Source of the DNA: a virus
Reading direction: 5' to 3' (one strand)
DNA: 39,858 nucleotides
Virus record (IMG/VR): IMGVR_UViG_3300034072_001411
Span: 1 to 39,858 of that record
This document shows, one piece after another, positions 311-29,049 of this stretch. The notes under the pieces are model-generated. The model ran no database searches. It saw only the letters and a list, made by a program, of their open reading frames with translations, and had not been told where the DNA came from. Each line of letters starts with the position of its first letter. Within the stretch, counting starts at the first letter, position 1. The translations under genes and the position numbers were made by a program.

Positions 311-1090
311 TTATAAATCATTTATAAACTGTATTAACCGTTCCTTAATTAACTTTCTGTCTCTATCCATTTGTATTGCTGTAGAGCCTTTTTTATATGG
401 CGGATATGGCTTTTGTTTAAACCGTGGTTGAAAGTGTTTACACAACGGAAATATATAACGGTATGTATCTACTTTAAAAAACTCTAAATCACCAAGCATA
501 AAAGCTATATTATTGCGTATGTAGATGCTTTTGCTATCCATGCGTGTAATGTTCATGCAGTGATTTATTTCGCCTGTACGCTTGTTTTTTGCAAATATAG
601 TTTCGTGACTGCCATAGTATTTAAAGTTTGATGCCTTATATATGGTACCACATCCCAAACGCCCATCAGCAAAAGACTGTACTGCAACAATGTTTTTATT
701 AAGTTTTGGTAATTGTTTTAAGGAATGTGCTATTAATAGGCTTTCAGCATTTTTACCAAGCTCATCGCTTATCCACATTCTATTTAACTCAAGCATTACT
801 GCATCCGGATTAGGATGGGTAAACAGTTTTGCTTTTGGATGCATCGTATAACCGTAAACAGCCACACCGAGGCATTCGTCAGAGCCTGGCCTGAAAAAGC
901 CGAAATTATATAGGCCAAAGCCTGAATTATTCCATTTCCTGCTATAATGATTATTAATAATAATTTCACGTGCAACCTCTTTATTTACCTGTCTTATTTC
1001 AAGGTCGCCAAGATTTTTAGTTTTAATGAATTTAAGCATTCGTTTTTTGATTGATGATTGATGATTACTATATTTGCAGCCTCCAAACAT
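311..1090 (-). CDS. mom: Mom-family DNA adenine modification protein
   Basis: This resembles the Mom family, whose Mu member hypermodifies adenine in phage DNA (methylcarbamoyl-type group) and so blocks host restriction. Conserved-looking blocks are NHYSRKW (47-53), ELNRMWISDELGKNAES (101-117) and SFADGRLGCGTIYKASNF (139-156), which fit the GNAT-like Mom fold. The gene is the last one before the right phage end, as in Mu. The longest frame (259 aa) starts at 1090. The ATG at 1039 gives 242 aa, begins nearer to where the recognisable domain starts, and may be the real start. The 1090 ATG lies in the arm of a large inverted repeat, which recalls the Mu mom leader hairpin opened by Com. No Com-like gene is adjacent. 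Confidence 0.8.
   Translation of the reverse strand: MFGGCKYSNHQSSIKKRMLKFIKTKNLGDLEIRQVNKEVAREIIINNHYSRKWNNSGFGLYNFGFFRPGSDECLGVAVYGYTMHPKAKLFTHPNPDAVMLELNRMWISDELGKNAESLLIAHSLKQLPKLNKNIVAVQSFADGRLGCGTIYKASNFKYYGSHETIFAKNKRTGEINHCMNITRMDSKSIYIRNNIAFMLGDLEFFKVDTYRYIFPLCKHFQPRFKQKPYPPYKKGSTAIQMDRDRKLIKERLIQFINDL
1047..1076 (+). promoter_or_regulatory. Bacteroidota-type promoter antisense to mom
   Basis: TTG at 1047-1049 and TATATTTG at 1069-1076 are separated by 19 bp, an exact match to the Bacteroidota -33/-7 consensus. It points rightward, against mom, and predicts a start near 1083, just before the 92-bp inverted repeat. No rightward protein gene follows, so it would make an RNA antisense to the mom 5' region. 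Confidence 0.5.
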
Positions 1091-1172
1091 GACAAAGCAC
1101 GCTTATGCACGATAAGAAGGCATTGCCCTCAGTCGCGTGCGTAAGCGTGCTTTATTTATGTTATGTTTGGAG
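1081..1172 (+). ncRNA. Large hairpin / candidate antisense RNA at mom leader
   Basis: Outer arms CTCCAAACAT (1081-1090) and ATGTTTGGAG (1163-1172) are perfect inverse copies. Inside them, 18-base arms at 1094-1111 and 1136-1153 pair with one mismatch around a 24-base loop. On the minus strand the 3' arm contains the upstream mom ATG, so the mom mRNA could hide this start. On the plus strand a good promoter begins just before the hairpin, so a compact RNA of about 90 bases is possible. It could also serve as a terminator for the upstream leftward tail operon. Confidence 0.45.
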
Positions 1173-1199
1173 ACTTAACTAAATGGCTGGGGGCTTCTT

Positions 1200-1538
1200 T
1201 TACCCCACAGGCTCTGTAAATTCAATTTTCCTTAAAAAGTCGAGCAGGATGGCGTTCTTTAGCTTGTCCCATATATCCGACTCTAAAAAGGCCGTAAACT
1301 CATTGTCTGTGTCTTTAAACGGGTGCCTGCCACTATAGGTGCGCTCGCCCGTTGGCGATACATCATAAGAGTAGAACACACATTCTTTGCGCTTGTTCTG
1401 ATAGTTACCTATTGAGATGTCTTGAATGACGAAAACTTTTTGTAGACCGGTTCCCGTGTCGGGGCGTTCTATTTCAAAGTTTCCGTTGTTGTCAAAACGT
1501 ACTTGATAGGTAATGCCGTTGGATGCTGTTACATTCAT
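1200..1538 (-). CDS. Uncharacterised late phage protein
   Basis: This 112-aa protein is not recognised. It is soluble-looking, with an N-terminal beta-rich part and a C-terminal helix containing FLESDIWDKLKNAILLDFL. It overlaps the upstream fibre gene by 4 bp, so it is translated as part of the tail-fibre end of the late operon. A fibre-associated or fibre-assembly role is inferred from position only. Confidence 0.6.
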   Translation of the reverse strand: MNVTASNGITYQVRFDNNGNFEIERPDTGTGLQKVFVIQDISIGNYQNKRKECVFYSYDVSPTGERTYSGRHPFKDTDNEFTAFLESDIWDKLKNAILLDFLRKIEFTEPVG

Positions 1539-3468: not shown

Positions 3469-4302
3469 TTATGCCGGTATAGGTTCGATAAACATTACTA
3501 TTCTGTAAGGGTTCATTATATTAACTGCCACGCCTGAACCGTCATAGGTTACGGCGAAGCTACCCGCCGATTGTGTGTTGTTGGCAAGCACACGCAAGCC
3601 GTCGTTCTCGCCGTTATCGGCCTCGCTGCGCGGTAAGTTAATGGTAAAAGATGGCAGGTTAGCGGTTGTTAATGCTTTGGTTTTAGAACCGCCCGTTTCG
3701 CCCACCGTATCAAAATCGGTATCGGCAGGGTTCCACCCCACAGGCATACGCCCGCGCCAGTCGGTTACTTCCTGCCATCCGGCAGGTATTCAGTTGGCAG
3801 GCTTTCTCCAAAAAACCATTGAGCCGTTAGCCACCGCAAACGGTGCTGCATACTTTTCAAGGGTTTCAACACGTGCCGTAAGGTTGTTAAGCGCGGTAAT
3901 GTTGGCTTTAAGGTTTAGCGCGGCCTGTATCTGGTTAGTTGGTATTGGGCGTGTAAAATTTGCCCAGGGATAATTGGTTGCAGCCGTGCCAAAAGTAGCA
4001 TAACGGGTTTTGCGCAATACCTTTAATTCGCCGTTCTCAAACTCTTTAGAGGTCTCCTCTTCAATGATGATAACCCTTACATCAGGAACAAGGTAAGCCT
4101 GCCTGAACTCCAACAGCTCACCGTTTAAATAGATAACGCCGTTTTGCACCAATGTCCCTGCTGTATTGCAGCCTGATATTATACTGAAATTGCCTGCGAG
4201 TTCGCCCAATGCCTGCAAGAACTGCCAGTCCTTTTGCAGTTCATCTAAACGCTCAAGCTTTAAAGGCCACCCGCCCGTTAGTAAAAATTCTGTCCTGTTC
4301 AT
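3469..4302 (-). pseudogene. Tail collar/fibre protein interrupted by in-frame TGA
   Basis: The first 170 codons encode a baseplate-proximal fibre segment with a helical stretch (LNLKANITALNNLTARVETLEKY). A TGA at 3790-3792 interrupts the frame, and translation would continue in the same frame as IPAGWQEVTDWRGRMPVGW and about 90 more residues ending in MFIEPIPA. The part after the stop is a phage tail-collar domain, usually joined to the first part. The lesion is a single stop codon with no length change. Separate expression of the C-terminal part from the ATG at 3747 is possible. The stop overlaps no obvious recoding signal. Confidence 0.7.
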
Positions 4303-25688: not shown

Positions 25689-26972
25689 ATGGACAAACCT
25701 GTTACAATTTATCATTACAAGGGAAACACTAATATATTAGCGCAAGAACATAATTATGATGATGCTCTTAAAAAAATCAAAGATTCATTTAATAAAGTTC
25801 TTGATGGAAAAAATCTTTCTTTTTTATTAGGTTCAGGGTGCTCTTCATTTAAAATAAACTTAGTAGATGATAAACCAGACAATTTCACAGAAGTAGGAAT
25901 TCCGACTATGATTCCGCTTGCGAAATTTTTTTTTAAAGAAGTTTTAGATAAAGGCGATGTAAAATTTTTGCTTCAGGAATGTAAAATTGATGTTTCAGAT
26001 AAAAAAATTGAAACAAATATTGAACATTTTTTAGGGGTATTACACAGTTATCGAGTTTATCTAAATACTGCAATATTTCCTGATCACCCTGCTGGAGAAG
26101 ATACACTTTTGCAAAAAGTTGATAAAATTATTGATAAAGCAAGAAAATATATCATTGAGAAATGTTTAAATGAAAGCAATCGTAAGAGTGGAATAGACGC
26201 TGGTCTCAATGCATTATATGAGCAATTTTATCGAAAGTTAATATATCGAAATTCTAATCTACCTAAAGCTAACATTTTCACTACTAATTATGACTTATAT
26301 TCAGAAACTGCGTTAGATAATTTAGGGATTCACTACGTGAATGGTTTTTCTGGTGGTATTAAAAAATATTTTAATCCTACAATATTTAATTATGCGCTTG
26401 CCGAAAAAATAGACTTGTCGCAAGCCAAGTGGAATGTAATTGATAACTTTTTCTATTTGTACAAAATTCACGGTTCAATAAACTGGATTGAAGATGATTC
26501 AGGTTCAAAGCTTTTTAGAGTTCGAGAACTGCAAGACCCAACAACTGAAAAACTACAAAAGCAAGGTACTGTGATGATACATCCAACACCGCTAAAACAA
26601 AATGCCAGTTTGGGTAGTCCTTATTCTGACCTTTTCCGAGAGTTCCAAAAGAAACTAATGCAAAACAATAATATACTTATTACAATTGGGTATAGTTTCA
26701 GCGACGAACATATAAACAATATAATTTTTCAGGCATTTACAATACCTTCATTTAGGCTTATTATTATTGGTGATCCCACAAGAAGTAAACAAATTGAACA
26801 GTTACAGTCTTTAGATGACCCACGCATTTGGATTTTGGGTGGTATTTTGAAAAACGAGGATAAACTTCATTACTTTAATGGATTTGTTGAAAATGTATTA
26901 CCTGATTTGAGTAATGATCAAATCGATAATAAAATTGAAGAAGCAATCAAAAAACTGTTACGCGATGAATAA
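25689..26972 (+). CDS. SIR2-domain NADase-like defence protein
   Basis: This 427-aa protein has a SIR2 fold: a nucleotide-binding FLLGSGCS (45-52), FTTNYD (197-202), KIHGSINW with His261, and ITIGYSFSDEHIN (331-343). These are the motifs of bacterial SIR2 effectors that degrade NAD+ on phage infection. Its stop codon overlaps the start of the HerA gene, so the two form one operon, as in the known SIR2-HerA (Nezha) anti-phage system. The region is AT-richer than the phage genes, which suggests it was acquired as cargo. No transmembrane segment is seen. Confidence 0.9.
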   Translation: MDKPVTIYHYKGNTNILAQEHNYDDALKKIKDSFNKVLDGKNLSFLLGSGCSSFKINLVDDKPDNFTEVGIPTMIPLAKFFFKEVLDKGDVKFLLQECKIDVSDKKIETNIEHFLGVLHSYRVYLNTAIFPDHPAGEDTLLQKVDKIIDKARKYIIEKCLNESNRKSGIDAGLNALYEQFYRKLIYRNSNLPKANIFTTNYDLYSETALDNLGIHYVNGFSGGIKKYFNPTIFNYALAEKIDLSQAKWNVIDNFFYLYKIHGSINWIEDDSGSKLFRVRELQDPTTEKLQKQGTVMIHPTPLKQNASLGSPYSDLFREFQKKLMQNNNILITIGYSFSDEHINNIIFQAFTIPSFRLIIIGDPTRSKQIEQLQSLDDPRIWILGGILKNEDKLHYFNGFVENVLPDLSNDQIDNKIEEAIKKLLRDE

Positions 26973-29049
26973 AGACGATAAACAACGGGTAATAGGCAAA
27001 ATTGTAACTATCAGTTCAGACAAATTTACTGTAGAGCTTCTCGCAGGTATAGAAAACTTTAATATAAACGGGTTTGATGATATTAATTACTTTGCGCAAT
27101 TAAATAGTTACATTGTAATACCTTATCAAAATTTTTATATTATAGCTGAAGTGGCGGGAGTGAGAGAGAAAGACTCACCTGCCTTTGTAACTAATCCAAA
27201 GGAGCAAACACTAAGTAAGATTTTTTCAGGAAAATTTCTTGATGTTTTACCAATAGGTTCTTTAAAATTGAAAACAGGTCATTCTGGGGAATACGAATTT
27301 GAATTTGGGGTTAGTATATATCCACCCCTGTACACAGATGCCCTCTACATACATCAACGTGAATTAGATACAATATTTAATGTAGCAAATCAAGAGTTTA
27401 TAAAGTGTGAAAACGATAATCAAGGCGATTGTGCCGAAAGTTGCCACTGTAAAAATCAGATATATAAAACGCTACCGATAGGAACATCGTCCATTTTTCC
27501 GGACTATAAGATCAAAGTTGATATCGATAAATTTTTTGGCGGACATGCTGCAATACTGGGTAATACCGGGAGTGGAAAATCATGTACAATTGCATCTATA
27601 ATTCAAGGTTTATTTACCTATAAAGATTATAGTGCAACCGGTAGTACTTTCGTTTTTTTTGACGTTAATGGCGAATACAAGCAAGCGTTTTCAAAAATTT
27701 CAGAAATAGATAACGATTTAAAAACACGTTTTTTATCATTAAAGCCGGACGAAGATCAGAATGATGAGGATGATTTTTACCTTCCACATTGGTTTTTAAC
27801 AATAGAAGAATGGGCTTTACTACTTCAAGCAACTGAAAGAACTCAATTACCTATATTAAGAAATGCGCTAGGTATGGCTCCTGTGTTTTCAAAAAAAGAA
27901 GATTTTGAAGCAATAAAAAATCATATATTGTCTACATGTATCTCTGAAATACTCAGAAGCTCACAAAGTCCAGGTGCGGTAAGCGTTCGCATTACTGCGA
28001 TACTTTTAAAATTTGGAACGAAAGATATTAATTTGGAAACGGCTTTTTCTTATAGAGATGACGAGGGAAAATTAGTTAAAAGTTTCATTCATGGAACATT
28101 AGGTAAGAAAGATTTAACAATAAAGAATGCCATACATGTTCATTTTGCATCTATGCCAGGAGGCGAACACTTACAGAAATGGCTAAATTCCATTGATGAA
28201 CAAGGGAAGCGTCTATTTATAATGGATAACTTTAAGATGCCGGTATATCAACCGTATCAAAAATTTAAATTTGAAGACTTAGAGCAAGTTGTTGATTTAG
28301 CGTTACTGTATGAAGAAGCGCATGGAAATAATCAAATCAGGGAATTTAATTCTTCTATGGTTACACGCTTAAAAAGTATAAAAGACAGACCGGATTTTGA
28401 ATTTTTACGACAAGAAAAAGGTTCAGAAGAAAGTTATAAACGTAAACTTTTAGGTCTAATCAAGCGAAGAAGGCAAGGTGTCACATTAAAAAAATTTCAA
28501 ATAATAAATATTGATTTAAGTTCTTTAGAAGATGAAATTGTAGAAGTTGTTTCTTGTGTAATTACTCGTATCCTCTACGAAGCAGTAAAAGAAATAGAAC
28601 CTCGGAATACGTATCCTGTAAATTTAGTTTTAGAAGAAGCGCATCGCTACATTGGGGGTCATGTTCAGACAAACTTTTTGAGAGCAAACGGAATATTTGA
28701 CAGAGTTGCCAAAGAAGGACGAAAGTTTGGCTTGTTTTTATTAATAAGTTCACAGCGACCGAGCGAGCTTTCAAAAACTGTATTAAGTCAGTGCAGTAAT
28801 TTTATAGTGCATCGAATTCAAAACCCGGAAGATTTGTCGCATATAAGACAAATAACACCACATGTAAGTGAAACGGTTCTAAGGCGAATGCCTTCTATAC
28901 CAACACAACATGCATTAATATTTGGCCATTGTGTAAACTTGCCCGCTACTTTTAAAGTAAATACAGCCGATCCAAGACCGAAGAGTGATAACAATAAGAT
29001 TAGCGAAAATTGGTTTAAGATTGCTAATCATGAAGTGAACTTAAAATAA
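26965..29049 (+). CDS. HerA-like hexameric ATPase of SIR2-HerA system
   Basis: The ATG at 26965 is chosen because it gives the ordinary HerA N-terminus and an 8-bp overlap with SIR2 (694 aa). Residues 1-100 look like the HAS-barrel. The ATPase has Walker A GNTGSGKS (199-206), a DVNGEY motif (233-238), Walker B NLVLEEAH (553-560), RVAKEGRKFGL (580-590) and SSQRPSELS (595-603). Cys residues near 147-162 (CENDNQGDCAESCHC) could bind metal. HerA rings assemble with SIR2 into a large complex in known systems. A terminator follows. Confidence 0.9.
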   Translation: MNKDDKQRVIGKIVTISSDKFTVELLAGIENFNINGFDDINYFAQLNSYIVIPYQNFYIIAEVAGVREKDSPAFVTNPKEQTLSKIFSGKFLDVLPIGSLKLKTGHSGEYEFEFGVSIYPPLYTDALYIHQRELDTIFNVANQEFIKCENDNQGDCAESCHCKNQIYKTLPIGTSSIFPDYKIKVDIDKFFGGHAAILGNTGSGKSCTIASIIQGLFTYKDYSATGSTFVFFDVNGEYKQAFSKISEIDNDLKTRFLSLKPDEDQNDEDDFYLPHWFLTIEEWALLLQATERTQLPILRNALGMAPVFSKKEDFEAIKNHILSTCISEILRSSQSPGAVSVRITAILLKFGTKDINLETAFSYRDDEGKLVKSFIHGTLGKKDLTIKNAIHVHFASMPGGEHLQKWLNSIDEQGKRLFIMDNFKMPVYQPYQKFKFEDLEQVVDLALLYEEAHGNNQIREFNSSMVTRLKSIKDRPDFEFLRQEKGSEESYKRKLLGLIKRRRQGVTLKKFQIINIDLSSLEDEIVEVVSCVITRILYEAVKEIEPRNTYPVNLVLEEAHRYIGGHVQTNFLRANGIFDRVAKEGRKFGLFLLISSQRPSELSKTVLSQCSNFIVHRIQNPEDLSHIRQITPHVSETVLRRMPSIPTQHALIFGHCVNLPATFKVNTADPRPKSDNNKISENWFKIANHEVNLK

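Follow-up and report, generated by a model that had tools for sequence, protein, structure and literature searches.

Comparisons across Bacteroidota temperate phages give good support to the view that the element in front of the DNA-modification gene mom of a Mu-like phage is a predicted small-RNA (sRNA) gene of about 120 nt, encoded on the + strand and belonging to a family retained across these phages. Its place is equally well supported: the predicted gene occupies the gap just ahead of the modification gene or genes, whichever kind these are, and is read from the other strand. That the RNA is expressed, stable and functional we infer from the same comparisons. On our best reading it represents an undescribed family of phage sRNAs, most likely with antisense-type control of modification genes: the openly accessible literature that we searched gave no description of the RNA, and Rfam gave no score at the gathering threshold, the weak matches lying far below gathering scores. 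The window, that is the whole stretch of DNA analysed here (IMG/VR virus record IMGVR_UViG_3300034072_001411, 39,858 nucleotides), is a Mu-like phage by its Pfam and PHROG profile matches: transposition genes resembling MuA and MuB, together with Mu Gam and an S24 repressor, occupy one end and Mom the other.

Table 1. Features in and around the gap upstream of mom (window coordinates)
Feature	Position	Strand	Basis or remark
mom, DNA-modification gene (likely extent; longest ORF 311-1090)	311..1039	-	PF25680 and starts of relatives
sRNA promoter TTG-N19-TATATTTG, Bacteroidota -33/-7 type	1047..1076	+	sequence and relatives
Outer stem P1, 1078-1094 paired to 1159-1175; inner stem P2, 1094-1111 paired to 1136-1153	1078..1175	+	
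Predicted small RNA, about 120 nt	1081..1201	+	promoter, hairpin, loop-tail helix and T-run
Apical loop AAGAAGGCATTGCCCTCAGTC	1114..1134	+	pseudoknot helix, 5' strand: GCCCTCAGTC (1125-1134)
3' strand of the pseudoknot helix, GGCTGGGGGC (1185-1194), then TTCTTTT	1185..1201	+	terminator-like 3' end
Convergent last gene of the tail-side operon	1200..1538	-	stop codon abuts the sRNA terminator

The longest reading frame of mom matches the Pfam Mom profile PF25680 at full length (profile positions 1-201 of 202, E 1.2e-62) and a PHROG described as 'Mom-like', so its initial annotation as a Mom-family gene holds. That annotation also had the upstream ATG of the gene held in the stem. An ATG does lie inside the hairpin (1088-1090), but it is probably not the start codon of mom, since the Mom starts of relatives align with the window ATG at 1037-1039 (MLKFIKTKNL...), outside the hairpin, which we therefore take as the likely start. 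In relatives, too, start codons are outside the stem, at 16-60 nt or more past the -7 box. Directly past the end of mom a hairpin AAGCCCC-TTAATT-GGGGCTTTA (289-312) is a likely terminator. The convergent gene on the far side of the gap gave no Pfam or PHROG match; at the equivalent position the Elizabethkingia phage TCUEAP3, one carrier of the RNA gene, has a tail gene.

The 92-bp hairpin described initially was recovered with its arms and positions. The inner arms span 18 nt with a single mismatch and the outer arms 17 nt with two mismatches, including the 10-bp perfect CTCCAAACAT. The structure is stable on both strands, with fold energies of -53.8 (+ strand) and -51.8 (- strand) kcal/mol; as z is about -10 on each (-10.4 and -9.6) and 0 of 200 shuffles folded equally well, it is not a product of chance. 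The promoter said to oppose mom is exact, with TTG at 1047-1049, N19 and TATATTTG at 1069-1076, and its position puts the predicted start of the RNA at the hairpin, much as had been proposed. The ends of the sRNA are likewise predictions, the start falling at 1081-1083 and the 3' end at the U-run. Promoter, hairpin, loop-tail helix and T-run together have a single match in the whole window.

The strand on which the element would work is indicated by a pairing between apical loop and tail, which the first description did not contain. In the window GCCCTCAGTC and GGCTGGGGGC form 10 bp, 8 Watson-Crick and 2 G-U on the + strand, and in the family the apical GUCCUCC(NNN) pairs with (NNN)GGAGGAC immediately ahead of the U-run. 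Given 43 diverse sequences, RNAalifold chose this helix unaided. Its cells are paired in 98.2% of cases compared with 89.1% when shuffled and 46-53% when slid, its covariation is 0.321 compared with 0.143, 0 of 500 shuffles do as well, and at a single position six types of pair occur. Counted on the sRNA strand over helix positions 1-10, the non-Watson-Crick pairs comprise 107 G-U against 1 A-C (the search pattern introduces some bias at position 2, while the unbiased position 9 gives 42 to 0), which fixes the functional strand of the helix as the one opposite mom. A strand-biased helix just before a U-run implies a pseudoknot-type terminator, and loop-tail helix plus T-run would thus make up a putative 3' end of the intrinsic type. 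The long stems, which we assessed sequence by sequence because the MAFFT alignment of them was too loose for a covariance model, carry 82 G-U and 76 A-C pairs (apical loop excluded) and so give no strand information; the sense leader or the DNA may therefore also be under selection. In every clade examined (AGAAGAC/GUCCUCC, AGAGGC/GCCCCC, AGAAC/GCUCU) the apical loop retains an A-C mismatch, equivalent to G-U on the opposite strand, although neighbouring pairs covary; the mismatch may keep this mini-hairpin weak enough for the tail to displace it.

In all 18 Mom loci of related phages (L002-L019; 17 by scanner, L019 by eye) a similar hairpin separates the upstream gene from mom or, in some cassettes, from a C5-methyltransferase+mom pair. 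Close relatives that keep mom have thus retained the hairpin, and the refuting outcome named with the first reading, its loss in such relatives, did not occur. Their stem sequences are unrelated, and an exact search for the stem of the window found no match, as is explained by the drift of stem sequences. What is constant on the strand opposite mom is TAnnTTTG ahead of the hairpin, the loop AGAAGAC-N-GUCCUCC (with small variants, the window copy included) and a 3' GGAGGAC-like tail with T-run. The loop and tail pattern matched 114 viral contigs and 70 genome contigs, almost entirely from Flavobacteriales, with 154 unique copies. TAnnTTTG stands 41-54 nt ahead of the loop motif in 145 of these 154, compared with a background of 35 in 819 80-bp windows (4%), and TTG at N19, the exact spacing of the window, is 5-fold enriched (40 of 154, 8 expected), which makes the antisense promoter a conserved part of the element.

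The family extends beyond this loop sequence. Diverged copies precede related cassettes in phages such as Hankyphage p00 and the Porphyromonas Mom phages, and there loop and tail still match each other despite different loops (GCCCCCGGUC/GGCCGGGGGC, UCCCCGGC/GCCGGGGA, GCUCUCGG/CCGGGAGC). A scanner independent of the loop sequence, requiring TAnnTTTG as promoter, a hairpin, a loop-tail helix of at least 8 bp and a T-run, reported one site per locus and exactly one copy in each of the three phages scanned in full (window 1077+, TCUEAP3 31955-, p00 40685-). An independent Bacteroidales loop-class pattern gave the full architecture in 64 of 98 contigs (48 unique). Altogether there are 208 distinct copies with 68 different loop/tail helices, and 75 distinct outer hexamer pairs form equivalent stems from unrelated sequence. 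Since the scanner requires TAnnTTTG, coverage outside Bacteroidota consists of Mom loci, checked with no promoter requirement; upstream of these non-Bacteroidota Mom genes and in Mu the antisense-strand architecture was absent. Two of 300 genomes of one family, one of them the query genome, contain the RNA, so it is prophage-borne and patchy. A MITE or other insertion element was ruled out by the single copy per phage, the fixed place and the conserved promoter.

The initial annotation tied the element to mom, and comparison of leaders does not support this part: the same RNA fronts five other unrelated cassettes. Of 151 Flavobacteriia copies, 144 have a gene for DNA modification as the first one across the promoter (a D12-like MTase, alone or accompanied by a thymidylate-synthase-like gene, in 81; ABC-ATPase plus GNAT and formyltransferase in 20; D12 in 15; ParB-MTase in 10; C5 in 9; Mom in 9), the six unrelated kinds being Pfam-confirmed. 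Bacteroidales copies have such a neighbour in 43 of 48 cases, often with a small HTH gene in between; of the other five, three lie at contig ends, one has an IS4-like insertion and one is a genuine exception. In that exception, L353, the sRNA architecture (around 9116, + strand) lies beside lysis-type genes and a modification gene is absent nearby. The intervening Bacteroidales ORF (Hankyphage p00, L423, 40709-40951; also L338, L334, L402 and others) is HTH-like, has about 80 aa and ends in SERKVYxLIKRF. It separates the sRNA promoter from the modification genes and is possibly a regulator.

Near-identical RNAs (94-96%) adjoin different cassettes, and the RNA is thus not enzyme-specific. In the pairs L124/L075 and L235/L149 the sRNAs, 96% identical, diverge at the -7 box or upstream of it and have different cassettes. 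It seems that cassettes are exchanged at the promoter and that each comes with a TAnnTTTG of its own. Nor is the association merely one of shared position. Most carriers have a Mu-type transposase, present in 30 of the 45 records tested (among them a few cassette loci with no detected copy), but several have a tyrosine integrase instead, and in integrase phages the RNA and cassette lie not at the genome end but between tail-tube-like and terminase-like genes, as judged by sequence resemblance. The presence of the RNA beside unrelated modifying enzymes suggests one common RNA-based control.

What would such an RNA do then? We lean towards a model, drawn from sequence comparison, in which the sRNA is made in the lysogen and represses the modification genes as an antisense RNA. 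Host RNA polymerase would transcribe it from the host-type Bacteroidota promoter, which lies on the strand opposite the target leader, as is expected of an antisense regulator. A late transcript would have to cross the gap to reach the modification genes. As the element contains no TAnnTTTG directed at the cassette (0 of 155), the cassette is probably read through from the late operon, and read-through would make its leader fully complementary to the sRNA. Expression of the modification genes would be kept low by pairing between the two RNAs, by RNase III cleavage or by collision of polymerases, and late transcription would eventually overwhelm the repression. Such RNA-based control would be compatible with interchangeable enzymes. 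The initial proposal of an antisense RNA is supported as to the conserved promoter, the predicted start of the RNA at the hairpin and the missing com, and not as to a mom leader comparable to that of Mu. Somewhat more tentatively, a structure-conserved antisense sRNA with a pseudoknot terminator may form a previously unnamed, general control-of-modification family that governs any cassette present, RNA and cassette moving together between transposable and integrase phages.

We favour control in cis because sequences drift while structure is conserved, no other strong target appeared in three phages and the RNA is independent of the enzyme. Against this model, the sRNA begins on the upstream side of the modification start codon, at a distance of 16-60 nt or more, and so does not cover the start site directly, the stems are strand-neutral, the near-constant Flavobacteriia loop is not needed in cis, and L353 has a copy with no modification gene nearby.

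The same loop counts in favour of the next reading, an unlikely one, that of a trans-acting anti-defence or host-takeover sRNA directed at a host factor or at other RNAs, which would sit beside modification genes because phages cluster their anti-defence functions. AGAAGAC-N-GUCCUCC is nearly constant in Flavobacteriia while the stems vary, the RNA has its own promoter and putative terminator, and its neighbours are anti-restriction-type genes. However, the loop sequence is not conserved beyond Flavobacteriia, and in 187 of 199 cases the RNA directly adjoins modification genes and is strictly divergent from them; the other cases are mostly at contig ends or disrupted. A search for loop complementarity, made in the start regions of the three complete phage genomes, gave no target clearly outside the shuffled range; besides the trivial cis complement, the best hits fell within that range or slightly beyond it, as with the window ORF start at 3747 (-26.7 compared with a shuffled minimum of -24.2).

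Control through the sense-strand leader, with an mRNA hairpin that blocks translation until opened and an opposite promoter of secondary importance, is improbable. The model for it is phage Mu, where the mom start codon lies in a hairpin opened by the zinc finger protein Com (PMC6483171), and the initial annotation had compared the mom leader to this structure. As in Mu, a Mom homologue (35% identical to that of Mu) is found towards the right end of a Mu-like genome, the region ahead of mom is structured and tight control is expected to be needed; the sense strand also folds about equally well, with strand-neutral stem mismatches and a G-U in the apical mini-hairpin where the sRNA has its persistent A-C mismatch. 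Against this reading stand the loop-tail helix, which at 107 to 1 favours the opposite strand, the promoter and T-run conserved on that strand, the likely start codons outside the stem and a hairpin common to six unrelated genes. As had been noted, there is also no com: the Com profile PF10122 had no match in the window or four relatives, while phage Mu, the positive control, was detected.

Still less probable is an element acting in DNA with no RNA function, such as a bidirectional transcription boundary or an insulating cruciform between late operon and cargo slot; the stems do resemble a DNA palindrome in being almost perfectly Watson-Crick with equal G-U and A-C, and the end is terminator-like, but the loop-tail helix is strand-biased and covarying, the promoter is conserved at fixed spacing and a sense-strand T-run is absent. 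A cofactor or guide RNA for the modification enzyme, as their constant proximity might suggest, is very improbable since the enzymes are unrelated (Mom, D12, ThyA-like, C5, ParB-MTase, ABC/GNAT/formyltransferase) and near-identical RNAs accompany different ones.

CopA/CopT, RNAI and RNA-OUT are cis-antisense regulators, and the RNA proposed here resembles them as a short, strongly folded RNA against the leader of a bordering gene, with structure kept while sequence drifts. It differs in using a loop-tail pseudoknot as putative terminator, in serving several unrelated genes as one family and in loops that are not the variable part within Flavobacteriia. Some restriction-modification systems also have antisense RNA control of DNA-modification genes, whereas here there is no restriction enzyme, the setting is a phage late operon and the RNA family is conserved across cassettes. 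Rfam structured RNAs near methyltransferase genes are alike in being structured RNAs near phage genes, with no real match. Phage DNA modification defeats restriction yet can harm the host cell, so its timing matters; to our knowledge, little is known of its control outside Mu. If the model is correct, a phylum-wide RNA family beside unrelated enzymes, including those of the abundant gut Hankyphage, would make this control testable in culturable systems, and the RNA could mark further modification cassettes. The Hankyphage prophage PV107405 carries the element, and public RNA-seq exists for a Hankyphage lysogen, B. thetaiotaomicron jmh43, with repC silenced or not (PMC12135933).

Two further observations concern single genomes. 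In Flavobacterium sp. TAB 87 (L186) a copy with neither promoter nor cassette is possibly a prophage remnant broken inside the hairpin. The window itself also encodes a SIR2 and HerA gene pair (25689-29049, + strand; PADLOC models SIR2 E 1e-143, HerA E 3e-245), by these matches a probable prophage-carried anti-phage defence system.
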